DNA from: Streptomyces sp. NBC_00536
GTDB lineage: Bacteria; Actinomycetota; Actinomycetes; Streptomycetales; Streptomycetaceae
Direction: 5' to 3'
Length of the DNA: 64,000 nt
Assembly (NCBI RefSeq): GCF_036346295.1
Contig: NZ_CP107819.1
Location: forward strand, 248,001 to 312,000
A program made the position numbers and the translations under genes. The notes beneath the pieces are model-generated. The model was not told where the DNA came from and ran no database searches. It worked only from the letters and a program-made list of their open reading frames with translations. This document shows positions 3,212-14,560 of this stretch, in pieces. Each line of letters starts with the position of its first letter. The first letter of the stretch is position 1.

Positions 3212-4249
3212 TCAGGGACGGTCCGGGGCCTGGGTTCCGGTGACGAAGACGACGTCGAGGGTGCGGGTACGGGTACGGGTACGGGTACGGGCGCCACGGC
3301 GGGGAGTGGGCGCGGTCGTGGCCGTGGCCGTGGCGGGAGCCGTGATCCAGGTGACGGCCCGGTCCGGGGCGAGCAGCCGCCGGGCATCGGCGGGGCCGCC
3401 GACGGCCTCCGTCGCGTACAGGACGCAGATGTGGTGGCCCGGCAGCCTGCTGAGGGCCTCGCCGCCCTGGCTGGTGCCGCCGTCGACGAGGGCGATGTCC
3501 CCGGTTTCCGCGACGGCCAGGGCGCAGCCGGTGATCGCCGCGTCCGTGGCACCGAGCAGCCCCGGGGTGAGCGAAGGCCCCTCGGACCGCAGCGCCGTCG
3601 CCGCGGGCAGGGCGGAGAGCCACTCCCGCGGTACGTCGGCGGGTACGGCCACGCTGGACGCCGCGTGCCCGGAGACGAGGTCCGCGATGACGTGCGCGAG
3701 CCCGCGCGGGGTCGTCCGGTGTACGGCAACGGCCCGTCCGGCGGCGCGGGGCACCGGCCAGTCGCCGGACACGCTGGACGCGGGCGCGGGCATGCCGGGG
3801 GCGGGCGCGCCGAAGGCGGGCGCGGCTGGCGCGGGCACCCCGGGCTCTCGCACCGCAGGCGCGGCTGGCGCGGGCGCAGGCGCAGGCACCCCGGGGGCGG
3901 CCACGGGTACCGCGGGGGCAGGCGCGGGTACCGCGGGGGCAGGCGCGGGTACCGCGGGGGCAGGCGCGACGGGCGCGGGCATGCCGGGGGCGGATGCGGC
4001 AAGCGCGGGCATCCCGGGCTGCGGCACGGCGGGCACGATCACGCCGCGCGCGGGCGCCGCTGGCGCGGGCACGGGCATCCCGAGGGCAGGCACGGCGGGC
4101 GCAGGCGCGGCCATCCCGGGCGCGGGCACGCCAGGAGCGAGCACAGCAGGCGCTGCCACACCAGGGACGGGCACCGCAGGCGCGGGCATCCCCGGGGCAG
4201 GCGCGGGTACCGCGGGGGCGGGCGCGGCGGGACCGCGGTCCGGGGTCAT
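3212..4249 (-). CDS. LUD-domain (LutC/YkgG-like) protein with long Pro-Ala repeat N-terminus
   Basis: The C-terminal half (about residues 170-345) resembles the LUD domain of LutC/YkgG proteins, which take part in lactate utilisation: note TGCALAVAETGDIALVDGG and LPGHHICVLYATEAVG. The N-terminal half is a low-complexity PAPAVPAPGMPA-type segment of about 150 residues, which is not part of the family. Near the C-terminus an (Arg-Thr)n run precedes LDVVFVTG. The ATG at 4249 overlaps the stop of the upstream FUSC-like gene (ATGA), so the two are translationally coupled. LutA/LutB partners are not nearby, so a lactate role is unproven. Confidence 0.75.
   Translation of the reverse strand: MTPDRGPAAPAPAVPAPAPGMPAPAVPVPGVAAPAVLAPGVPAPGMAAPAPAVPALGMPVPAPAAPARGVIVPAVPQPGMPALAASAPGMPAPVAPAPAVPAPAPAVPAPAPAVPVAAPGVPAPAPAPAAPAVREPGVPAPAAPAFGAPAPGMPAPASSVSGDWPVPRAAGRAVAVHRTTPRGLAHVIADLVSGHAASSVAVPADVPREWLSALPAATALRSEGPSLTPGLLGATDAAITGCALAVAETGDIALVDGGTSQGGEALSRLPGHHICVLYATEAVGGPADARRLLAPDRAVTWITAPATATATTAPTPRRGARTRTRTRTRTLDVVFVTGTQAPDRP
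3265..3288. repeat. (GGGTAC)4 hexanucleotide repeat
   Basis: Four perfect tandem GGGTAC units inside the 3' end of the LUD gene, encoding alternating Arg-Thr on the minus strand. A degenerate fifth unit lies just before it. Confidence 0.9.
3905..3967. repeat. Three perfect 21-bp tandem repeats
   Basis: The 21-bp unit starting GGGTACCGCGGGGGCAGG occurs three times without a mismatch. It encodes a seven-residue APAPAVP-type unit of the LUD protein. Degenerate copies extend across about 3780-4230, indicating growth by in-frame tandem duplication. Confidence 0.9.
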
Positions 4250-5580
4250 GCGGCACCGTCCGCGGACGCGCGGCGCGGCCGGAAGGGGCGCCGCTGGAAG
4301 GGGTGCGTTCGGTGGCGGGGCCACACCACGTGGCCGAAGGCGAGCGCGACGAGGCAGGCCAGCAGAGTGTCCACGACCCGGGCGGCGGTCTCCGCCGGAC
4401 CGGCCACGGCGGCCGGGTTGGCGAGGACGAGGACTATGACGGTGGCGAGGGACGTGTGCCCTGCGTACGACCGGTCCGTCACCCCGGGCACCAGGGCGCC
4501 GACGACGACGGCGACCACGACCAGCACTCCCCCGTGCGGGGCGAGGACGGCCAGGGCGGCGGCGACCAGCACTCCGGCGAGGGTCCCGGCCGCGCGGTGC
4601 AGGGCACGCCGGTGCAGGGGCATGGCATCGAGCCGGAAGACGAGACAGGCGGTCAGCGGCAGCCACGAGGCGTGCCGGGGGTGCAGCGCGACGGCCACGG
4701 CCGCCGCGAGAGCGACGCACCCGGCGAGGCGCAGCGCGTGCCGGAGGTCCGGTGCGGTCGGGCGCAGCAGCGCCGCTGCCGTCCGCACGCGCGGGCCCAG
4801 CGACACCGCCACCCTCCGCACACGCGGGCGCAGCTCCACCACCGCCACCCGCACGCGCGGACCCGGCGACGCCGCCGCCCTCCGCAAACGCGGGCGCAAC
4901 TCCACCACCGCCACCCGCACGCGCGGGCCCCGCGACGCAGCTGGCTTCCGCAGGCGGGGGCCAAACGGCGCCGCTGCCTTCCACCGACGGGGCCCAAACG
5001 GCGCGGCTGCCGCGCGCGGGCGACGGCCGTCGTGCCGTCGCCCGTACGGTCGCCCCGCCCCGGCACGGGCAACCCCGCGCGGCCCGAACCGGTCGGCGAC
5101 CACCCCGGCCGCGACGAGCGCGAGCATCGGCGCGCAGCCCAGCAGGTAGAGCCCGGCCGCCTGCCCCACGGGAACCCTCGCACCGAGGCCGAAGCCGATG
5201 CACGTGAGGATCATCAGCTTCAGCCCGGCGAGCTGCGCCGCCTGGCCCTTGGGCCACAGCACTCCGGCGGCCAGGCCCGAAGCGGCCATCGCCGCGATCT
5301 GGCCCGGCCCGGAGGAGTGGACGAGGCAGCCGAGTACCGTCCCCGCCGCCCCGGCCGCCATCACCGCGGCGAGCCGCCCGGCGCGGGTCCGCGCGGGGCC
5401 CGTACCGTCGGCGTTGATCGAGCACAGGCCGCCGACCACGAGAGCGGAGGCGCCGTTCACACCGGTCGCGACGGCCACGGCCGAGGCGCAGGCGAGGGCG
5501 AAGGCGGCGCGGAGCGTCCGGTCGGAGCGCAGGAGGCACAGGAGGCGTCGGAGGCGCAGGGGGCGTCGGAGCGCGCGCAC
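4246..5580 (-). CDS. FUSC-family (aromatic acid exporter-like) membrane protein
   Basis: A 444-residue membrane protein with two halves of hydrophobic helices (about residues 20-150 and 275-400), the layout of FUSC/ArAE-type proteins that may export aromatic or other weak acids. Visible segments include AAFALACASAVAVATGVNGA and ASWLPLTACLVFRLDA. The GTG at 5580 starts just after the DsbB-like stop. The linker between the halves holds about 2.5 copies of a 22-residue Arg/Val-rich repeat (GPRVRVAVVELRPR...), unusual for the family. It overlaps the LUD gene by four bases (ATGA). Substrate unknown. Confidence 0.75.
   Translation of the reverse strand: MRALRRPLRLRRLLCLLRSDRTLRAAFALACASAVAVATGVNGASALVVGGLCSINADGTGPARTRAGRLAAVMAAGAAGTVLGCLVHSSGPGQIAAMAASGLAAGVLWPKGQAAQLAGLKLMILTCIGFGLGARVPVGQAAGLYLLGCAPMLALVAAGVVADRFGPRGVARAGAGRPYGRRHDGRRPRAAAAPFGPRRWKAAAPFGPRLRKPAASRGPRVRVAVVELRPRLRRAAASPGPRVRVAVVELRPRVRRVAVSLGPRVRTAAALLRPTAPDLRHALRLAGCVALAAAVAVALHPRHASWLPLTACLVFRLDAMPLHRRALHRAAGTLAGVLVAAALAVLAPHGGVLVVVAVVVGALVPGVTDRSYAGHTSLATVIVLVLANPAAVAGPAETAARVVDTLLACLVALAFGHVVWPRHRTHPFQRRPFRPRRASADGAA
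4785..4945. repeat. 66-bp tandem repeat inside the FUSC-like gene
   Basis: Unit boundaries recur 66 bp apart (for example GCGCAGCTCCACC at 4828 and GCGCAACTCCACC at 4894), with a partial third copy upstream. Each unit encodes 22 residues of the predicted cytoplasmic linker. Confidence 0.8.
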
Positions 5581-6167: not shown

Positions 6168-6189
6168 GATCGCTTGCTCCGGGTTTCCG

Positions 6190-6219
6190 GTCATGGTCAT
6201 GGTCATGGTCATGGTCATG
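6190..6219. repeat. (GTCATG)5 hexanucleotide repeat
   Basis: Five perfect GTCATG units between the DUF5993-like stop codon and the DsbB-like start. On the minus strand each unit offers an in-frame ATG, so copy number could change spacing or create an N-terminal Met-Thr extension. Confidence 0.9.
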
Positions 6220-6220
6220 G

Positions 6221-6379
6221 TCAGAGGGAGATCGGGATGGCGCTGTGCGAGTGCACGAGGAAGGTCGCCAGCATCCAGACCGTCGAGACGGCGGTCATGA
6301 GGATCAGGGCGCGCTTGGTACGCCGGGTCACCGCGATCCACAGCGTGATGAGGATCAGCAGGAGGCAGAGGGATTCCAT
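6221..6379 (-). CDS. Small DUF5993-type membrane protein
   Basis: A 52-residue protein with two hydrophobic helices (LCLLLILITLWIAV and ALILMTAVSTVWMLATFLV) separated by a basic RRTKR turn. It resembles the short DUF5993 proteins found beside DsbB-like genes. The ATG at 6379 precedes the first helix. It is probably the first gene of a unit with the DsbB-like gene. Its function is unknown; membrane partnership with the oxidoreductase is inferred only from adjacency. Confidence 0.7.
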   Translation of the reverse strand: MESLCLLLILITLWIAVTRRTKRALILMTAVSTVWMLATFLVHSHSAIPISL

Positions 6380-6500
6380 CGAGGGGACGCCTTTCACACT
6401 TCGCCCCATTCGAACCGGAATGGGGGCCTTCAGTACAACATAGATACAAGCTTAGATGCAAGAATGTGCCCATCCATCGGAGAGCAGGGAGAATGGATCC
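6380..6500. promoter_or_regulatory. Divergent promoter region with TAGATACAAG direct repeats
   Basis: The gap between the DUF5993-like gene and the GntR gene is locally AT-richer and holds TAGATACAAG (6441-6450) and TTAGATGCAAG (6452-6462), near-identical direct repeats. They may be operators of the adjacent GntR regulator. A closely related copy occurs at 18855-18865. Confidence 0.45.
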
Positions 6501-7181
6501 ATGAGTCAGGGAAAGCCCGCCGCGGAGCGGGCGTACACGCACGTCAGGAACCGCTTGCTGGACGGCAGCTACCCGGGCGGGACGCTGCTGTCGGAGGGCA
6601 CGGTCGCGGACGACCTCGCCATCTCCCGCACCCCGGTGCGCGAGGCGTTCCTGCAGCTCCAGTCCGAGGGATTCCTACGGCTGTACCCCAAGCGCGGCGC
6701 CCTGGTCGTGCCCGTCACCCTGGCCGAGGGGCGCGAGACGATGGAGGCGCGCCTCCTGCTGGAACTGCACGCCCTCGACTCCACGGCCGCCCGCGGCGAA
6801 CAGGCCGTACGCGACCTCGGCGAGGCCCTGGCCACCGCGCTCGGAGACACCCGGGCGGAACCCCTCCCGCCGAGCGCGCTCGCCCTCGACGCGGGGTGGG
6901 GCTTCCACACCCGGCTGGTCGCCGCCTCCGGCAACACCATCCTCACGGGGATGTACGACCGCCTGTGGACCCGCCAGCTCCGCCTCGCCGCGGCCTCGAT
7001 CGCCACCACCGAGAACGCGGACGAGGACATCGAGGAACACGCCGCGATCGCCGAGGCGTTGCGCCTCGGTCACGCCGTCCGCGCACGCCGCCTGATCGGC
7101 CTGCACACCAACGCGATTCTGCGCCGCCTCGGACTCGGGGACCACGACCTGCGGCTGCCGCCCGAGCCCTCCGGGCGGTAG
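6501..7181 (+). CDS. GntR-family regulator, FCD (FadR-like) subclass
   Basis: A 226-residue protein with an N-terminal winged helix-turn-helix (about residues 8-72: LLSEGTVADDLAISRTPVREAF, LQLQSEGFLRLYPKRG, both hallmark GntR sequences) and an all-helical C-terminal FCD ligand domain with the metal-binding-type pattern in DAGWGFHTRLVAASGN and a later GLHTNA. The ATG at 6501 has an AGGGAGA site. It faces away from the DsbB-like operon and may regulate it. Ligand unknown. Confidence 0.88.
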   Translation: MSQGKPAAERAYTHVRNRLLDGSYPGGTLLSEGTVADDLAISRTPVREAFLQLQSEGFLRLYPKRGALVVPVTLAEGRETMEARLLLELHALDSTAARGEQAVRDLGEALATALGDTRAEPLPPSALALDAGWGFHTRLVAASGNTILTGMYDRLWTRQLRLAAASIATTENADEDIEEHAAIAEALRLGHAVRARRLIGLHTNAILRRLGLGDHDLRLPPEPSGR

Positions 7182-7221
7182 GCCCCGTCCCCGTCCCCGT
7201 CCCCGACGTCAGGCCGGGGCC
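7181..7221. terminator. Convergent hairpin with (CCGTCC)n repeat
   Basis: GGCCCCG (7181-7187) pairs with CGGGGCC (7215-7221) across a run of CCGTCC units. It sits between two convergent genes and probably terminates both. Confidence 0.55.
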
Positions 7222-8069
7222 GAGACCAGCAGGTCCGCCCACATCGACTTGCCCGGTGCCACGCCCCGCTGGTGCACGCCCCAGGCGACGGAGACCGAGT
7301 CGATGAGCATCAGTCCGTACCCGCCCCCGGCACGGCCCAGGGCGGGTACCGCGTCGGCGCCGAAAGGGTCGGCGTCCCGCCCGTCGTCCTCCGCATCGCC
7401 CACTTCGATCCGCAGGAGATCGCCGAGCGCCATCCGCAGTTCGAAGGCTCCCGCGAGCCCGTTCCCATTCCCGTTCCCATTCCCGTTCGGCACCCGGCCC
7501 GCGAGCAGTTCGGCGATCACCACCTCCGCCGCCTCCGAGCAGGCACCCCCGTGCGGGATCCCCCACTGCTCCAGTTGGTGCAGCGCGAGCAGCCGGGCGA
7601 TCCGCGCGCCGCGCCGGGTGGCCTTGAACCGCTGGGCGAATTCGGCCCCGGGACGGGCACCCGGCCGGCCGGGGTCCACGGAGCGGTCGATGTCGAAGAA
7701 ATGGTTCTCCATGCCGTACGGGACCAGGCTCCGCGTCTCGTCGAGCCACTTCGACAGCTCGCCCGCCGGGACCGCGAACAGGCAGGCGACCGCCGATTCC
7801 AGTTCGACGTAGACACGGTCCCCGCCGCCCGGCTCCGCGCCGCCCGGCCAGATCCGGATGCCCTCGTCAGCCACCGCCTCCACGCAGCCCCGGATCAGCA
7901 GGGCCCGCGAGACCACCCACGCGAGGCGGACGCCGTTGAAGATGCGGATCTCCACCTCGAAGGGCCGGGCCCGCTCGTAATGGAACGACCCCACGATGGG
8001 CACGGGCGCCTCACGCCCTCCCCGTCGTACGACGTCCACCTCGATGTTCCGGCACAAGCCCAGGGTCAC
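7209..8069 (-). CDS. SsgA-like domain fused to HATPase_c (anti-sigma-type) domain
   Basis: A 286-residue two-domain protein. Residues 1-135 resemble SsgA-like proteins that steer septation and peptidoglycan synthesis in streptomycetes: PVPIVGSFHYERARPFEVEI, a WVVSRALL segment, IRIWP and the ending VPYGMENHFFDID. Residues 150-286 resemble the GHKL ATPase fold of RsbW-type kinases: RRGARIARLLALHQLEQWGIP, ELLAG, and GGYGLMLIDSVSVAWGV. The N-box Asn expected after EL is Gly (about residue 191) and is followed by an (Asn-Gly)5 run encoded by a 12-bp repeat. The GTG at 8069 has a GGAG site. Convergent with the GntR gene and divergent from the kinase at 8310. Confidence 0.8.
   Translation of the reverse strand: MTLGLCRNIEVDVVRRGGREAPVPIVGSFHYERARPFEVEIRIFNGVRLAWVVSRALLIRGCVEAVADEGIRIWPGGAEPGGGDRVYVELESAVACLFAVPAGELSKWLDETRSLVPYGMENHFFDIDRSVDPGRPGARPGAEFAQRFKATRRGARIARLLALHQLEQWGIPHGGACSEAAEVVIAELLAGRVPNGNGNGNGNGLAGAFELRMALGDLLRIEVGDAEDDGRDADPFGADAVPALGRAGGGYGLMLIDSVSVAWGVHQRGVAPGKSMWADLLVSAPA
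7458..7489. repeat. 12-bp tandem repeat CCCGTTCCCATT
   Basis: About 2.5 copies of a 12-bp unit inside the ATPase half of the SsgA fusion gene, encoding alternating Asn-Gly exactly where the N-box should continue. Confidence 0.85.
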
Positions 8070-8309
8070 AGCACGAACTCCAGCGGGAGGGAAGAAGCCC
8101 CGCTCGTCGGCGGGGCACGGACACACAGGTCCCCATTCCATGCCGTGGACCCGCTCCTGCGCGGCCAGCGGCCTTCAACCTTGGTCGACGATCGGGTCGA
8201 CGAACGTCCCGCGCGCCGTTGACGAAGGACATCACCGTGCCGGGCGAAGGCGCGCGGGGCGGCGGTTAGCGTCGGCCAGTCCCCCAACCCCCCATCGACT
8301 GGATGGCGT

Positions 8310-9614
8310 ATGTCTCTTCTGCACCGGGCCATGGCAGCAACCACGGAAAGACGGCCGTGGGCGAGCGGACGTGCGGGACTCCGCGCGCCACGGACCGTCC
8401 GCTTCGTCCCCGGCCGCTGGGGCGACGCCGCCTGGACCGCTCTGATGGCCGTGTACGCGCTCCACGTCGGCATCACCGGCGACGAAGGCTTCCTCCACGG
8501 CAACACGGCCCGCAGCGCACTCTGTCTCACGGCCGCCCTGGGATTCCTGCTGCTCTGCCGCCGGTCGGCGTTCGCGTACTGCGCCCTGGCCGCGCTCGTG
8601 TTCGCGGCCACCGACTTCTACGTCCCGCTGACCGCGGCCGCCTTCGCCCTGGGCGTCGTGGACCGTGACCGTACGGGAAGGCGGCCCGGCGGCCGGGGCG
8701 CCGCCATCGTGGTCGGCGTCCTGCTCTCCGTACAGGCCGGGTTGCTGGGCGGCTACCGCCGGGCCGCCGTCGAGTGCCCGGCCGTGTCCGTCGACCCGCT
8801 CCTGCTGCCGTGCGGGTTCCTCGAATCGGCGTACCGGTCCGCCGCGGCCGTCATCGCCGCCTACGCCCTCGGCGCCTACTTGCGCCGCTCCGCGCAGATG
8901 CGCTCCCTGAACCGGCGGCTCGCACGCGAACACGACCTGCGGACCGAGCAGGCCAGGATCAGCGAACGCACGAGCATCGCCGGTGAGATGCACGACCTGC
9001 TCGGCCACCACCTCGCCCTCACCGGCATCTACGCGGGAGCCCTTGCACTCAAGACGTCGGTCTCCCCCGAGGTGAACCGGATGGCGCGGGTCGTCGTCGA
9101 CTCGAACACGACGGCGGCGCGGACCCTCCACCGCGTGGTGGAGATCCTGCGGCGCGAACCCACCGAAGACACCACGTCCGCACGGGACATGACGGCGCTC
9201 GCGGCCCGCGTCCGCGAGACGGGCTCCGAGGTGACCGGTCCCGAGAGCTGGGACGGCTTCGACGCACTGCCCGCGGTGACGCGGCGCGCGCTGAGCCGCA
9301 TGCTGCGGGAGGCGGTGACCAACATCGTCAAGCACGCCCCGGGGTCCCGCGTCGGCATCTCCTTCGTCCTGGACGAGGACACCGTCGAGCTGACCGTGAC
9401 CAACGGCCCCACCGCGCCGGGGCGCGCGACCGCCGCCCTGGCGGGCGGGTTCGGACTGGCGGGCCTGGAAGAGCGGATGGGCCTGCTGGGCGGCCTGCTC
9501 ACGGCCGGCCCGCGGCCCGGGGGCGCGTTCCGGGTCCGCGCCGTACTGCCCCTGCCGGACCCCTGCCCGGCTCTGTCCGCGCACACCGTCCCCCGCGGCC
9601 CGGAGGCCCCGTGA
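8310..9614 (+). CDS. NarL-type sensor histidine kinase
   Basis: A 434-residue membrane kinase. The N-terminal third has about five hydrophobic segments; the transmitter region has the HisKA_3 motif GEMHDLLGHHLALTG (phospho-acceptor His about residue 229) and a degenerate HATPase domain with an N-box (REAVTNIVKHA) and GGFGLAGLEERM. It autophosphorylates and should pass phosphate to the adjacent regulator. Its stop overlaps the next start codon by four bases. The region 8070-8309 upstream is the divergent promoter zone and shows no other gene. Confidence 0.88.
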   Translation: MSLLHRAMAATTERRPWASGRAGLRAPRTVRFVPGRWGDAAWTALMAVYALHVGITGDEGFLHGNTARSALCLTAALGFLLLCRRSAFAYCALAALVFAATDFYVPLTAAAFALGVVDRDRTGRRPGGRGAAIVVGVLLSVQAGLLGGYRRAAVECPAVSVDPLLLPCGFLESAYRSAAAVIAAYALGAYLRRSAQMRSLNRRLAREHDLRTEQARISERTSIAGEMHDLLGHHLALTGIYAGALALKTSVSPEVNRMARVVVDSNTTAARTLHRVVEILRREPTEDTTSARDMTALAARVRETGSEVTGPESWDGFDALPAVTRRALSRMLREAVTNIVKHAPGSRVGISFVLDEDTVELTVTNGPTAPGRATAALAGGFGLAGLEERMGLLGGLLTAGPRPGGAFRVRAVLPLPDPCPALSAHTVPRGPEAP

Positions 9615-10274
9615 TCCGGGTGTTGATCGTCGACGACGAACCGCTCATCCGCAGCGGTCTGCGCACCCTGCTCGCCGGGGCCGGCGACCTCGATGTCGTG
9701 GGCGACGCGGCGAGCGGAGACGAGGCGGTACGAAGATGCCTGCGCGACCCCGTGGACGTCGTCGTGCTCGACATCCACATGCCCGAGGCCAACGGACTGG
9801 CCGTCGCCGCCAAGCTCACCGCGCTGCCGCGCCCCCCCACGGGTCCTGATCCTCACCAACCTCGGCTCCGACCAGAACCTGCTGCAGGCGCTCGACGCGG
9901 GTGCGAGCGGCTTCGTCCTCAAGACCGCGGGCCCCGACTGCATCATCAGTGCGGTACGGCTGACCGCCGCCGGGGGCTGCGCGACGATGCCCGACCTCGT
10001 CAAGGGCCTCCTCGGCGCGGCCCGGCTGCAGAGCCCGCGCCGGGCCCGGACGGCCCGCGCCCGGCTGGACGTACTCAGCGACCGGCAGCGGGAGATCCTC
10101 GCGCTCGTCGCCCGCGGGGACTCCAACGCGCGCATCGGCCGGAAGCTGGGCATGACGGAGGGAACGGTGAAGACCTACCTCTCGCGCATTCTGACCCTCA
10201 TCCACGCCGAGAACCGGACCCAGGCCGCGCTCCTGATGTACGACGCGGGCTTCACCGATGAAGTCGGCAGCTGA
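9611..10274 (+). pseudogene. NarL/LuxR-type response regulator, frameshifted at a C7 run
   Basis: The first frame encodes a normal receiver start (MIRVLIVDDEPLIRSGL, phospho-acceptor in VVVLDIHMPEANG) up to ALPRPP; the rest of the receiver (RVLILTNLGSDQNLL, GASGFVLKTAG) and the LuxR-type DNA-binding domain (LSDRQREILALVARGDSN, GMTEGTVKTYLSRIL) continue in the +1 frame to 10274. The switch falls in CCCCCCC at about 9832-9838; one C fewer restores one continuous protein of about 220 residues. It may be a real frameshift, phase-variable tract, or sequence error. It is the cognate partner of the kinase upstream and lies directly before the TasA-like gene. Confidence 0.85.
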
Positions 10275-10426
10275 CCTTCTCAACAGTTCCGTTGACCTTG
10301 GTTGATTTTATGCGGCCGATACGGACAACGCCTTCTAGATTCATTCTCAGTCCACACGGACCGCATCCGATTCGGAATTCCGACCGGATGCCAGATATTT
10401 ACGAATACTTAAGAAACAGGATTATC
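10275..10426. promoter_or_regulatory. AT-rich leader upstream of the TasA-like gene
   Basis: A region of about 150 bases notably richer in A/T than its neighbours, with TTGACC near 10290 and an AGGA ribosome-binding sequence just before the GTG at 10427. It very likely contains the promoter of the TasA-like/SipW unit and perhaps sites for the adjacent response regulator. No defined operator is visible. Confidence 0.4.
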
Positions 10427-11011
10427 GTGAACGGCATCAAGCTCAAGACCCGCTTCAGCTCCAAGCGCGCCGCCGTGGCCGGTGCGGCCACCCTCATCGG
10501 CCTCGGCCTGATCGCGGGCGGCGGCTACTCGGCCTGGGACACCACCAAGGACGCTCCCAACAGCGGTACCGTCACCGCCGCCACGGTCACCCTCGACGCC
10601 GTCGAGAACCCCACGATGACCGACCAGTGGACGGCCAACCTGGACAACGCCCTTCCGGGCGCCTCGAAGGCCGGCTACCTCGACGTGTCCAACACGGGTA
10701 CGACCGACCTCACCGTGGCCGGCACCCTCAAGGCCGACACCAAGAGCAACGGCCTGGAGGGCGCGCTGACCCTCAAGGTCATCGAGAGCACCACCGCGTT
10801 CGACGACCAGGCCCACGTGCCTGGCGACGAGACCGTGATCTACGACACCGCGACGGTCGACCAGACCGGTGTGAACACCGACCTCGGCAAGATCGCTCCG
10901 AACACCAAGGTCTACCTGAAGATCGTCACCACCCTGCCGTCGGACGCCGACGCCACGTACCAGTCCCAGAAGGCGGCGTACGACTACGGGTTCGTCGGCA
11001 CCACCGCCTGA
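10427..11011 (+). CDS. TasA/CalY-family secreted protein
   Basis: A 194-residue protein with a basic N-terminus, a hydrophobic signal helix (AAVAGAATLIGLGLIAGGGYSAW) and a beta-rich mature region (TVTAATVTLDAVENPTMTDQW, LPGASKAGYLDVSNTGTTDLTVAGTL) typical of TasA/camelysin-type proteins, which in Bacillus form biofilm fibres and are processed by SipW. The GTG start at 10427 has AGGA five bases upstream. It is followed after a strong hairpin by a SipW-like peptidase gene, supporting the family call. A structural role at the hyphal or spore surface is inference. Confidence 0.8.
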   Translation: MNGIKLKTRFSSKRAAVAGAATLIGLGLIAGGGYSAWDTTKDAPNSGTVTAATVTLDAVENPTMTDQWTANLDNALPGASKAGYLDVSNTGTTDLTVAGTLKADTKSNGLEGALTLKVIESTTAFDDQAHVPGDETVIYDTATVDQTGVNTDLGKIAPNTKVYLKIVTTLPSDADATYQSQKAAYDYGFVGTTA

Positions 11012-11031
11012 TCCGGCACCCCGCCACACCA

Positions 11032-11062
11032 GCCGCCCCCGTCCTCCCCGGACGGGGGCGGC
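11032..11062. terminator. Strong hairpin between the TasA-like and SipW-like genes
   Basis: GCCGCCCCCGTCC (11032-11044) pairs perfectly with GGACGGGGGCGGC (11050-11062) around a five-base loop. Lying between two co-oriented, functionally linked genes, it probably attenuates readthrough so the structural protein is made in excess over its peptidase. Confidence 0.75.
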
Positions 11063-11119
11063 CCTCGTGCTTTCCCCCCACACCCCCTTCCCCCACCAGC
11101 AGAACCACAGGAGACCACC

Positions 11120-11680
11120 ATGGACGCGCAGACCCCGAAGGGTCCGGCGAGGACCACCTACCGCGTGCTCCGCGGGCTGCTCCTCGCCGCCCTCCTCACC
11201 GCGGTCACGGCCCTGGGCGTCGGCCGCTTCTGCTTCGACCTGCGGTACGTCCCCGTCCTGACGGGCTCCATGGCGCCGGGCATGCCCACCGGATCCCTCG
11301 TCGTGCTCGCCCCCCTCCACCCCAAGGACATCCGGGTCGGCGAGGTCATCGCCTTCAAGCCGCCGGCCCCGTACGGCGAGCCCGGTGGCGCGCCCGTCAT
11401 CCACCGTGTGCTGACCCGGACCCGGACGGACGGTACGACGGTGATCACGACCAAGGGAGACGCGAACCCCGTCGCGGACCCGTGGCGGATCCGGCTCGAC
11501 TCCGGCACCTTCGGCAAGGCCGTCACCCACGTCCCGTACGCCGGGGGCGCCGTGACCTGGATCCGCTCCCTCGGCGGGTTCGGCTCCGTCGCGATCGCCG
11601 CCGGGGTGCTCGTCCTCGCCCTGGGCCTCCGGGCCTTCCGCCGGGCCACTCGCATTCAGGCGGGCGATGCCACGGCGTAG
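11120..11680 (+). CDS. SipW/ER-type signal peptidase I
   Basis: A 186-residue membrane serine protease. The catalytic serine is in LTGSMAPGMPTGS after an N-terminal transmembrane helix; the downstream box has VIHRVL with His in place of the bacterial-type Lys, and TKGDANPVAD, both features of the SipW/archaeal-ER subgroup that process TasA-type proteins. A second helix closes the protein (SVAIAAGVLVLALGLRAF). Its position immediately after the TasA-like gene indicates that protein as substrate. Confidence 0.88.
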   Translation: MDAQTPKGPARTTYRVLRGLLLAALLTAVTALGVGRFCFDLRYVPVLTGSMAPGMPTGSLVVLAPLHPKDIRVGEVIAFKPPAPYGEPGGAPVIHRVLTRTRTDGTTVITTKGDANPVADPWRIRLDSGTFGKAVTHVPYAGGAVTWIRSLGGFGSVAIAAGVLVLALGLRAFRRATRIQAGDATA

Positions 11681-11709
11681 CCGCCGCGCCCGACCTCCTG
11701 AGAAATACC

Positions 11710-11748
11710 GAAGAGGCGCACGTCGATTCTTTCGACGTGCGCCTCTTC
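11710..11748. terminator. Perfect 17-bp inverted repeat terminator
   Basis: GAAGAGGCGCACGTCGA (11710-11726) is exactly repeated in inverted orientation at 11732-11748 with a five-base loop. It closes the TasA-like/SipW unit. Confidence 0.85.
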
Positions 11749-11874
11749 GACATTTCCCGGGATTCCGCCACCATGGTGTATCGATCTTCGACTTTCGTCG
11801 CCTGCCCGATCCTTAATGTGGTTCCCACGCCGGACACCAAGGCGCATTGCCCACTGCAAAAAGGAGTTCACGAA

Positions 11875-12300
11875 ATGTCGTACGAGCGAGAGGTACGGAG
11901 AATACTCACGGGGCGCTTGCGGCAGCTCACCGGCGGCGACATCGACGTGCACAGCGTCTTCACCTACCGGGCCGACGACCCCTTCGCCGTGTCCATCGGC
12001 TTCTCGTGTGCCGGAGAGCACATCGAGTGGTGGGTCGGACGGGAGGTCCTGCACGAAGGGCTGATGTGGCCGAGCGGGATACCGGGCGCGGACATCCGCG
12101 TCCTGCCATTGGGGCGCCACGGCATGTCGCCCAGCATCCTCCTGGCCCTCACGTCCCCCTTCGGGAGGGCCTTGGTCGAGTTCGCGACCCACGAGATCGT
12201 GGCGTTCCTCAACGCCACCGACCAACTCGTGCCGCAGGGCACGGAGTCGGCGGAGATCGACATGGACGGCGCGATCGCCGACATGCTGGGCAGCGCCTGA
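11875..12300 (+). CDS. SsgA-family sporulation/cell-division protein
   Basis: A 141-residue stand-alone SsgA-like protein (family length about 130-145): FTYRADDPFAVSIGFSCAGEHIEWWVGREVL, then a WPSG motif and VPQGTESAEIDMD, matching the family's conserved core and C-terminal acidic segment. SsgA-like proteins recruit septum and wall-synthesis machinery during sporulation. The ATG at 11875 follows a good AAGGAG site. It ends one base from the stop of the convergent penicillin-binding protein. Second SsgA-type gene in 4 kb; the other is fused to an ATPase. Confidence 0.88.
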   Translation: MSYEREVRRILTGRLRQLTGGDIDVHSVFTYRADDPFAVSIGFSCAGEHIEWWVGREVLHEGLMWPSGIPGADIRVLPLGRHGMSPSILLALTSPFGRALVEFATHEIVAFLNATDQLVPQGTESAEIDMDGAIADMLGSA

Positions 12301-12301
12301 A

Positions 12302-14560
12302 TCAGCCGGACGTCGGGCCGGGGTCGGGTGTGGGGGTCGGGGTCGGCGTGGGAGTCGGCGTCGGAGTGGGGGGCGGCGTCGGAGTCGGGGTGGGCGTAGG
12401 AGTCGGCGTCGGGGTGGGCGTCGGCGTCGGCGTGGGAACCGGAGGCCGCGGGCGGGGCGAGGAGCGGGTGGGCGAAGGGGTCGGTGTCACCTGGCCCGGG
12501 TCGCCCTGGCCCCAGCCCGGGGGCACGGTGAAGGGCTGGTTCCGCTGCCCCTCCAGAGCGCTGTTCATGTACGCGGTCCAGATGCCCAGGGGGTAGCCCG
12601 AGCCGTTGACCCGGTCACCGCCGCCGAGTCCGGCGAGGGACATGTGGGCGTGCGTGCGCGGGTCCTCCCGGAAGAGCCCCACCGTCGTGGCCAGCGTGGG
12701 CGTGTAGCCCGCGAACCAGGCGGAGGTGCCGTCGTCCGTGGTCCCGGTCTTGCCCGCGGATCCTCCGGGGCGGTTCAGGGCCCGCGCGCCCCGGCCCGTA
12801 CCGTCCTCGTCCCAGATGACTCCCTTGAGCGTCTGGTTCACCTCGTCGGCCACCGTCTTGCTGAACGCCCGCTCCGTGTCCTCCGTCGGCAGGTCCACCT
12901 GGTCGTCGCCGTGCGCGAGCCGGCTCACGGTGTGGGCGGGGGCGTGCACGCCTCGGGCCGCGAAGGTGGCGTACGCGCCGGCCAGGTCGATCGCGCTCGG
13001 GGTGACCGTGCCGAGCGAGGTGACCGGATCGCCCGTCAGGCTGGGCAGGTCCGGGAGGCCTGCGTCGAGCGCCGCCTGGCGGACCTTCTCGCCGCCGATG
13101 TCGGCGGCGAGTTGCGCGTAGACCGTGTTGGACGAGACGTCCATGGCCCGGCGCAGGCTGATGCGCCCGTACTGGCCGTCGTCCTCGTTGCTCAGGACCC
13201 AGGGCGCGCCCGAGTTCAGCACCGGTGTGCCGTCGGGGTTGCGGATGGTGACGTGGCTGTTCCCGTTGTAGGTGGCCTCGGGCGAGGTCCCGGCGCGCAG
13301 GGCCGCGGCCAGGACGAAGGCCTTGTAGGTGGAGCCGATCGGGATGTCGCGGCGGGTGGCGTCGTCGTAGTACTGGGTGAGGTAGTCGGGGCCTCCGTAC
13401 ATCGCGACGACCGCGCCGTCGCCGGGCACCACCGACGCGGCCGCCACGCGCACCTGCTCGTCGACCGCCCGGCTGCCGACGTCCAGCCCGGCGCGCAGCT
13501 CGCTGTCGACGGCCGCCACGAGCGCGTCCTGCTTGTCCTTCTCGAAGGTGGTGGTCACCTGGTAGCCGCCGGCCGCCCACTGCTGCTCGGTCAGCACCTT
13601 CCGGTCGCGGATCAGGTACTGCTTCACGGCGTCGACGAGATAGCCCGCCTGCCCCTTCAGCCCCGGCGCCACCTGGGGTGCCAGGGGCTCCGGGAAGGTC
13701 ATCCCGGCCCGGTCGGTGGCGGACAGCCAGTGGGAGCTGACCATGCCGTCGAGGACGTAGTTCCAGCGGGCGATGACCCGGGCGCGGGTCTGCGGTCCGG
13801 CCTGGCTGACGTCGTACACGCTCGGTGCGTTCAGCAGGGCCGCGAGGTAGGCGCCCTGTTCGGTGGTGAGGTGTTCGGCGTCCACCCCGTAGTAGGCGCG
13901 GGCCGCCGCCTGGATCCCGTCCGCGCCCCGGCCGAAGTAGCTCGTGTTGAGGTAGGCCTCCAGGATCTCGTCCTTGCCGTACCGCTGCTCGGTCTTGACG
14001 GAGAGCACCAGTTCCTTCGCCTTGCGCAGCGCGGTCCGCTCCTGGGTCAGGTAGTAGTTCTTGACGAACTGCTGGGTGATCGTGGATCCCCCCTGGGCGG
14101 GACCACCGCCCCGGACGTCGGCCCAGAGCGCCCGCGCGGTCCCCGAGGCGGAGAATCCCGGCTCCTTGTAGAAGTTGCGGTCCTCGGCGGCCAGGACGGC
14201 TTCCTGGACCGGCTTCGGAACGCGTGCGAGCCGGACGTTCTCCCGGTTGGTCGACCCCGTGGAGGCGATGGGGGTGACGCCGTCGCTGTAGAAGAAGGTG
14301 TTCTTCTGTGCCTGCACCTCGGCGTGCGCGTCGGGCACGGGGGTCAGTACGTAGAACGCGGCGCCCGCCCCGACCGCGCCGAGGACGGTGAGACCGAAGG
14401 TCGTGACCACCTGCCGGACCGACGGGATCCAGCGGGTCGCGCCGGTGCGTCTGCTCCGCGGATAGTCGACGAGCCGCCGAGTCCGCCCCCCGCCCTTGCT
14501 CCCGCTCCGCCGACGGGCGGTACCCCGGGATGGTGACGGACGACGGTCTTTGTTCCTCAT
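12302..14560 (-). CDS. Bifunctional class A penicillin-binding protein
   Basis: A 752-residue membrane-anchored wall synthase. After a basic cytoplasmic tail and one transmembrane helix come the GT51 glycosyltransferase domain (EAVLAAEDRNFYKEPGFS, then GGSTITQQFVKNYYL) and a transpeptidase domain with the three motifs IGSTYK (SxxK), SSNT (SxN) and GKTGTT (KTG). It polymerises and cross-links peptidoglycan outside the membrane. The C-terminus is a long Pro-Thr repeat tail encoded by 6-bp units. The ATG at 14560 was preferred over one at 14584 because of the AGGA site before it. Convergent with the SsgA-like gene. Confidence 0.92.
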   Translation of the reverse strand: MRNKDRRPSPSRGTARRRSGSKGGGRTRRLVDYPRSRRTGATRWIPSVRQVVTTFGLTVLGAVGAGAAFYVLTPVPDAHAEVQAQKNTFFYSDGVTPIASTGSTNRENVRLARVPKPVQEAVLAAEDRNFYKEPGFSASGTARALWADVRGGGPAQGGSTITQQFVKNYYLTQERTALRKAKELVLSVKTEQRYGKDEILEAYLNTSYFGRGADGIQAAARAYYGVDAEHLTTEQGAYLAALLNAPSVYDVSQAGPQTRARVIARWNYVLDGMVSSHWLSATDRAGMTFPEPLAPQVAPGLKGQAGYLVDAVKQYLIRDRKVLTEQQWAAGGYQVTTTFEKDKQDALVAAVDSELRAGLDVGSRAVDEQVRVAAASVVPGDGAVVAMYGGPDYLTQYYDDATRRDIPIGSTYKAFVLAAALRAGTSPEATYNGNSHVTIRNPDGTPVLNSGAPWVLSNEDDGQYGRISLRRAMDVSSNTVYAQLAADIGGEKVRQAALDAGLPDLPSLTGDPVTSLGTVTPSAIDLAGAYATFAARGVHAPAHTVSRLAHGDDQVDLPTEDTERAFSKTVADEVNQTLKGVIWDEDGTGRGARALNRPGGSAGKTGTTDDGTSAWFAGYTPTLATTVGLFREDPRTHAHMSLAGLGGGDRVNGSGYPLGIWTAYMNSALEGQRNQPFTVPPGWGQGDPGQVTPTPSPTRSSPRPRPPVPTPTPTPTPTPTPTPTPTPTPPPTPTPTPTPTPTPTPDPGPTSG
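12317..12440. repeat. GGCGTC/GGGGTC hexamer array encoding a Pro-Thr tail
   Basis: About 120 bp of GTCGGN-type six-base units at the 3' end of the penicillin-binding protein gene, encoding (Pro-Thr)n. Degenerate at the third positions, so likely maintained at the protein level. Confidence 0.85.

Follow-up and report, generated by a model that had tools for sequence, protein, structure and literature searches.

SsgA-like proteins (SALPs) steer FtsZ and spore-wall synthesis. The family (PF04686; SsgA to SsgG) has a small, single-domain architecture. The published link between the ssg genes and whiJ is transcriptional, as described in PMC4457907: a whiJ point mutant alters the ssgG, ssgE and ssgF transcripts, and ssgRA is independent of whiJ.

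A second family is formed by the AbaA (OrfA)-type ATPases of the whiJ/bldB clusters, which the excerpts of PMC4255298 and PMC10294661 describe as anti-sigma-like and for which these excerpts name no sigma factor as target. In S. venezuelae, according to the excerpt of PMC10294661, loss of BldB raises the five abaA paralogues. When these five and iosA were overexpressed one at a time, a white phenotype was seen with abaA6 and with iosA, and no obvious effect with the remaining four genes (PMC10294661, same excerpt). The abaA6 phenotype was sporulation-deficient, so a division-related target is plausible. DUF397 proteins have been described as toxins in XRE-DUF397 pairs (excerpt of PMC7159879), with no bearing on the protein analyzed here.

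In this Streptomyces genome, a SALP domain and an AbaA-type ATPase domain are encoded together in one gene, a rare combination of two already known Streptomyces developmental families. No published report of a SALP-AbaA fusion was found in our literature searches.

The fusion gene and its locus

The window, i.e. the whole 64-kb stretch of DNA that was analyzed, carries the fusion as a single open frame on the minus strand (Table 1). GC at codon positions 1, 2 and 3 is 0.76, 0.51 and 0.90 overall, and GC at the third position (GC3) is 0.93 for residues 1-135 and 0.88 for residues 136-286; thus, both halves read as coding. The frame can be extended upstream to an ATG at 8141, where GC3 is 0.58, and this extension is probably not coding. 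The GTG start is supported by the block CTGGAGTTCG..CTGTG, which contains both GGAG and GTG and shows conservation with G324, another Streptomyces genome.

Table 1 Features of the fusion gene and its neighbourhood (positions in the window; identities are to the G324 counterpart)
Feature	Position	Strand	Evidence or remark
FCD/GntR-family regulator, convergent with the fusion	6456..7181	+	69 % identity
SALP-AbaA fusion gene, 286 aa, GTG start, stop at 7209-7211	7209..8069	-	ORF analysis; full-length orthologue G324:C1:7593303-7594151
AbaA-type GHKL ATPase domain, residues 142-286	7212..7646	-	Alignment A4 and tree
Insertion NGNGNGNGNGLAGA, residues 195-208 (about three residues here in relatives)	7446..7487	-	12-base repeat at 7458-7488; alignment A4
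Junction at the lost N-box residues NAVTH, falling between residues 190 and 191	7499..7500	-	Comparison with 42 stand-alone relatives; intact in G324
SsgA-like (SALP) domain, residues 28-121 by Pfam; SALP-like part overall about residues 1-130 (7680-8069)	7707..7988	-	PF04686, 52 bits; profile A5
GGAG, likely ribosome-binding site, 8 bases ahead of GTG	8078..8081	-	Within the block kept in G324
Sensor histidine kinase, divergent from the fusion	8310..9614	+	52 % identity
Response regulator, split over two frames	9611..10274	+	59 % and 70 % identity in two pieces
Secreted-looking protein	10292..11011	+	52 % identity
Signal peptidase I, archaeal/SipW-like type	11120..11680	+	62 % identity; TIGR02228 77.6 bits (cut-off 51.85)
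Second, single-domain SALP, 141 aa	11875..12300	+	PF04686, 79.3 bits

When the same architecture was sought in other genomes, G324 was found to contain a full-length fusion (47-49 % identity; 49 % over residues 5-284) without stops, with a canonical ATPase motif and in a syntenic locus. The sequence-only reading had named a gene unique to this assembly and split by a stop elsewhere as grounds for rejecting the fusion, and neither part applies. Coding GC3 in both halves and the syntenic full-length orthologue also rule out an open frame arising by chance and two adjacent genes read as one. We are nearly certain that a SALP domain and a GHKL-type ATPase are joined in one frame, as that reading had proposed. 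A structure model of the fusion, built from a three-row alignment, has a mean pLDDT of 43.2, too low for the model to be of use.

A single faulty assembly thus does not account for the fusion, which is nevertheless rare. Two genomes carry it in all, the present one and G324, and no third was found in overlapping draws of 392 Streptomyces genomes, 296 relatives of G324 (72 genera), 394 genomes of the family (17 genera) and 246 of the genus, where an independent SALP-AbaA fusion would fall under the E-value limits. With a loose limit, no fusion other than that of the window was present among the matches listed from 61 genomes. On plasmids, 80 % cover of the fusion was reached by none of the 4 and 39 matching records (of 72,556), and 80 % cover of the locus DNA by none of 43.

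The order FCD regulator, fusion, kinase, response regulator, secreted protein and signal peptidase is common to both loci. The response regulator changes frame at a run of seven C (approximately 9832-9838) and its G324 counterpart is intact; decay and sequencing error are both compatible with this. The secreted-looking protein matches no Pfam or NCBIfam family at an E-value of 0.01. The signal peptidase scores 42.8 bits against the SipW equivalog (cut-off 190) and is present in two of 150 genomes at an E-value of 1e-20, the present genome included. In each locus a SALP adjoins the peptidase, and the two are of different kinds (29 % identity). The stretch 10292-12300, in which peptidase, secreted-looking protein and second SALP lie beside the two-component pair, may be a surface-protein locus using SALPs; the same set with a differing SALP occurs in G324.

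Repeats are also found nearby. Hexamer arrays lie at 3259-3292, 6188-6224, 7181-7207 and 12315-12433, some of them encoding dipeptide runs, and the stretch 3780-5010, which has several long overlapping frames, is densely filled with tandem repeats (15 to 66 bases). We counted three hexamer arrays in the window vs. five in 211,144 bases of 58 other loci (approximately 1.5 per 64 kb; an earlier density of 3.8 had been inflated by loci fetched for carrying such a repeat). The arrays are perhaps twice as dense here as in the 58 loci, but these numbers are too small to claim more, and the repeats were not retained as a special feature. Four copies of GGGAAY occur in 8 of 61 genomes.

Relatives of the two halves

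The N-terminal half matches SsgA (PF04686) with an E-value of 7e-14, well above the cut-off of 25 bits, and the SALP half of the G324 fusion scores 79.5 bits, in line with the earlier assignment to the SsgA-like family. A profile made from the fusion SALPs and their relatives (A5) matches solved SsgA (6slc; E-value 2e-35) and an SsgA-like structure (3cm1; E-value 1e-30). The invariant Y..PF, W, R, LL and G of this alignment are present in the window copy. At 44.3 bits the fusion is far below the SsgD equivalog cut-off (185 bits), as are other SALPs tested from its own genome.

The tree's 13 closest relatives (L058-L070) stop at the domain, whereas the fusion carries a second one, and with 286 aa and two domains it departs from the SALP architecture. 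SALPs close to that of the fusion were found in 15 genomes besides the two with fusions; 14 end at or near the domain (including L072) and one (L071, in genome G295) extends for 115 residues. This tail is low-complexity and repeat-rich, and the AbaA profile matched nothing in that locus; L071 was thus ruled out as another fusion.

The C-terminal half of the window copy alone has no Pfam match even at an E-value of 10, so that the earlier provision that one half might fail its family holds in form only: four stand-alone relatives tested match HATPase_c_2 (33.7-44 bits; cut-off 27.4), and the G324 fusion lies just below the cut-off (24.1 bits). In the draw of 392 Streptomyces genomes, the window half is 44-52 % identical to stand-alone proteins in 14 ATPase-only rows, and among the matches listed from 61 genomes with a loose limit weaker stand-alone relatives reach down to about 31 %. 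The F.QRF..TRRGARLAR.LA..QL..WG.P motif and the GK..WAD end of the AbaA (OrfA) type (SCO4544 type) are both present in the window half.

We examined the neighbours of 42 stand-alone ATPase loci, which are the best matches of their genomes and not a random sample. Within about 1.5 kb, a WhiJ-like gene was found in 39 and a DUF397 gene in 38 of them; example neighbours used as seeds were assigned by Pfam to HTH_31 and DUF5753 (WhiJ-like) or to DUF397. The three loci without a WhiJ-like gene are L013 and L021, both cut by contig ends, and L026. These neighbours identify the stand-alone ATPases as AbaA-type proteins of whiJ/bldB clusters, and by sequence relationship it is with these, and not with RsbW proper, that the fused half belongs. 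The plain RsbW assignment of the sequence-only reading was replaced on this ground.

The fusion differs from this family in being joined to a SALP, in its missing N-box (see below) and in its neighbours. Neither a WhiJ nor a DUF397 gene turned up in the window, in loci L047 and L048 or in the 20 kb around the G324 fusion, and the fused ATPase has thus left its usual setting. Unfused SALP and AbaA genes are not neighbours: over a distance of about 1.5 kb, a SALP was found in none of the 42 ATPase loci, and AbaA, WhiJ and DUF397 genes in none of 20 SALP loci (15 from other genomes and five from the present one). A pattern search of low sensitivity returned an ATPase stretch of Streptomyces ficellus (L031) as the sole relative among named genomes, and none was confirmed among 44 candidate stretches in viral contigs.

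The N-box and the divergence of the window copy

In GHKL ATPases, the N-box Asn binds the Mg ion of Mg-ATP. At this place the stand-alone relatives have AELAANAVTHGRVPGRDFEL or a close variant, and N[ASR]..[HY] is kept in 41 of 42. The G324 fusion is intact (ELTANAVTHAG). In the window copy the order is AELLA, GRVP, NGNGNGNGNGLAGA and FEL: NAVTH is absent. An in-frame gain of about 11 residues is due largely to a perfect 12-base repeat (2.6 copies, 31 bases). The Asn-Gly run had been attributed to a DNA repeat and the N-box described as lacking its Asn, and both observations stand. A second natural N-box loss is seen in L026, where a stand-alone AbaA-type protein has Lys instead of the N-box Asn; its locus lacks both WhiJ and DUF397 genes.

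The Asn had been read as replaced by Gly, and the global MAFFT alignment alone does show a substitution. However, GRVP corresponds to the stretch after the N-box of relatives (pattern N....GRV in 27 of 42, HG[RHQ][VI] in 37 of 42), and its retention makes a deletion simpler than a substitution. The spacing from AEL to F is 20 residues in the window vs. 14 in the 40 stand-alone rows (of 42) in which the pattern gave a measurement (the pattern begins 8 residues early in some rows, giving 22). Deletion of the Asn together with AVTH, plus an in-frame Asn-Gly insertion, is thus the best reading, and we substituted it for the Asn-to-Gly change. Either way, the loss of the Mg-binding Asn means that nucleotide binding should be lost, and we hold it very likely that the window copy no longer binds nucleotide. 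Its ATPase half is probably a pseudo-ATPase.

In the tree, the two fusions group on one branch by their ATPase halves (support 99/97, from a bootstrap that had not settled); the window copy is flagged as a long branch (1.14 vs. 0.38). The SALP halves form one branch with G324's second SALP (100/99). The two SALP halves are sisters in 24 % of bootstrap trees; it is the presence of that second SALP in the same cluster that leaves them unsupported as a pair. The tail of this second SALP (L047:7564-8229) weakly resembles the first AbaA helix (11.8 bits, E-value 0.014; maximum of 6.4 bits in 2000 shuffles), and this SALP may have arisen by duplication of the fusion and loss of the ATPase.

Distances to outgroups are larger for the window copy than for that of G324. 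This is so for the ATPase half in 40 of 42 comparisons, or 38 of 42 when N-box and repeat are left out, and for the SALP half in all 21. As the outgroups are related to each other, these are not independent tests. It appears, as judged from these distances, to evolve faster in both halves.

Explanations and significance

The best explanation overall, to which we assign a probability of about 0.6, is a genuine fusion of a SALP with an AbaA-type ATPase in which the ATPase would act as a clamp. The fusion would have arisen once, or spread by transfer, in a rare accessory Streptomyces locus. Through its SALP half the protein would be located, like other SALPs, at the machinery of division or of the cell wall. 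In the intact form of G324, the ATPase half may clamp the SALP half or a partner in a nucleotide-dependent way, freeing or masking it, a model patterned on partner switching by GHKL anti-sigma proteins. In the window genome the clamp lacks NAVTH; it would not be expected to bind Mg-ATP and would be either locked in a single state or inactive. The switching mechanism itself is drawn by analogy, and we rate it as less likely than not. Points against the explanation as a whole are the unsettled bootstrap and long window branch of the ATPase tree, the lack of sister support for the two SALP halves, the separate locations of unfused SALP and AbaA genes and the lack of an obvious effect of four of the six genes overexpressed in S. 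venezuelae.

A substantial possibility, though not the one we favour, is that the window copy is a decaying remnant in a drifting locus, a protein without a current role. The missing N-box, the greater distance from outgroups than G324's copy in both halves and the split response regulator close by all fit decay. On the other hand, the gene runs for 286 codons without a stop or frame change, with coding GC3 throughout; the repeat unit is a multiple of three, so that the frame is kept; and many conserved SALP positions are retained. Function in G324 and decay in the window genome can both hold.

We consider it rather unlikely that the window copy is a working pseudo-ATPase whose AbaA half serves as a nucleotide-independent binding arm, the fusion being a constitutive scaffold in this species. 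Such an arm would agree with the loss of the N-box while the frame is kept together with VGD, GYGL and GK..WAD, which we take to be the other core motifs of the ATPase half. However, the faster evolution of both halves and the Asn-Gly loop fit relaxed rather than redirected constraint.

An anti-sigma kinase of the RsbW/SpoIIAB type, binding a sigma factor directly, is improbable. RsbW and SpoIIAB are GHKL ATPase relatives, profile A4 (10 stand-alone relatives and the G324 domain, with the window ATPase half) weakly matches RsbW 6m36 (E-value 4e-4), and HATPase_c_2 is found in the four stand-alone proteins tested. The window half itself is below that cut-off, is closer to the AbaA-type proteins of whiJ clusters and has no N-box, and the window contains none of the 10 STAS and none of the 50 Sigma70_r2 matches of this genome (partners may be encoded elsewhere). 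The suggested direct link of division steering to sigma/anti-sigma-like signalling was therefore not sustained as worded, and with the N-box gone, signalling by the window copy is itself doubtful.

Least probable of all is a local assembly error hiding a normal N-box, for although the lesion lies at a short repeat and a gene close by has a homopolymer frame change, the missing NAVTH precedes GRVP, outside the repeat itself, and the repeat is short (31 bases) in a contig of 8.66 Mb.

A natural SALP-AbaA fusion is a concrete and testable hint at a possible target of AbaA proteins. AbaA-type ATPases are numerous in Streptomyces and at least one can block sporulation, and the excerpts of PMC4255298 and PMC10294661 give no molecular target. 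The fusion suggests that AbaA-type ATPases act on SALPs, but that it reveals the target of the whole family we regard as unlikely. If true, AbaA proteins would bind SALPs (such as SsgA or SsgB) in a nucleotide-dependent manner and keep septation in check up to the point at which the whiJ/bldB circuit sets them free. This would account for the block of sporulation by AbaA6 overproduction, and the fusion would represent both partners in one chain. The window copy offers a natural loss of the ATP-binding motif for comparison with the intact form of G324.
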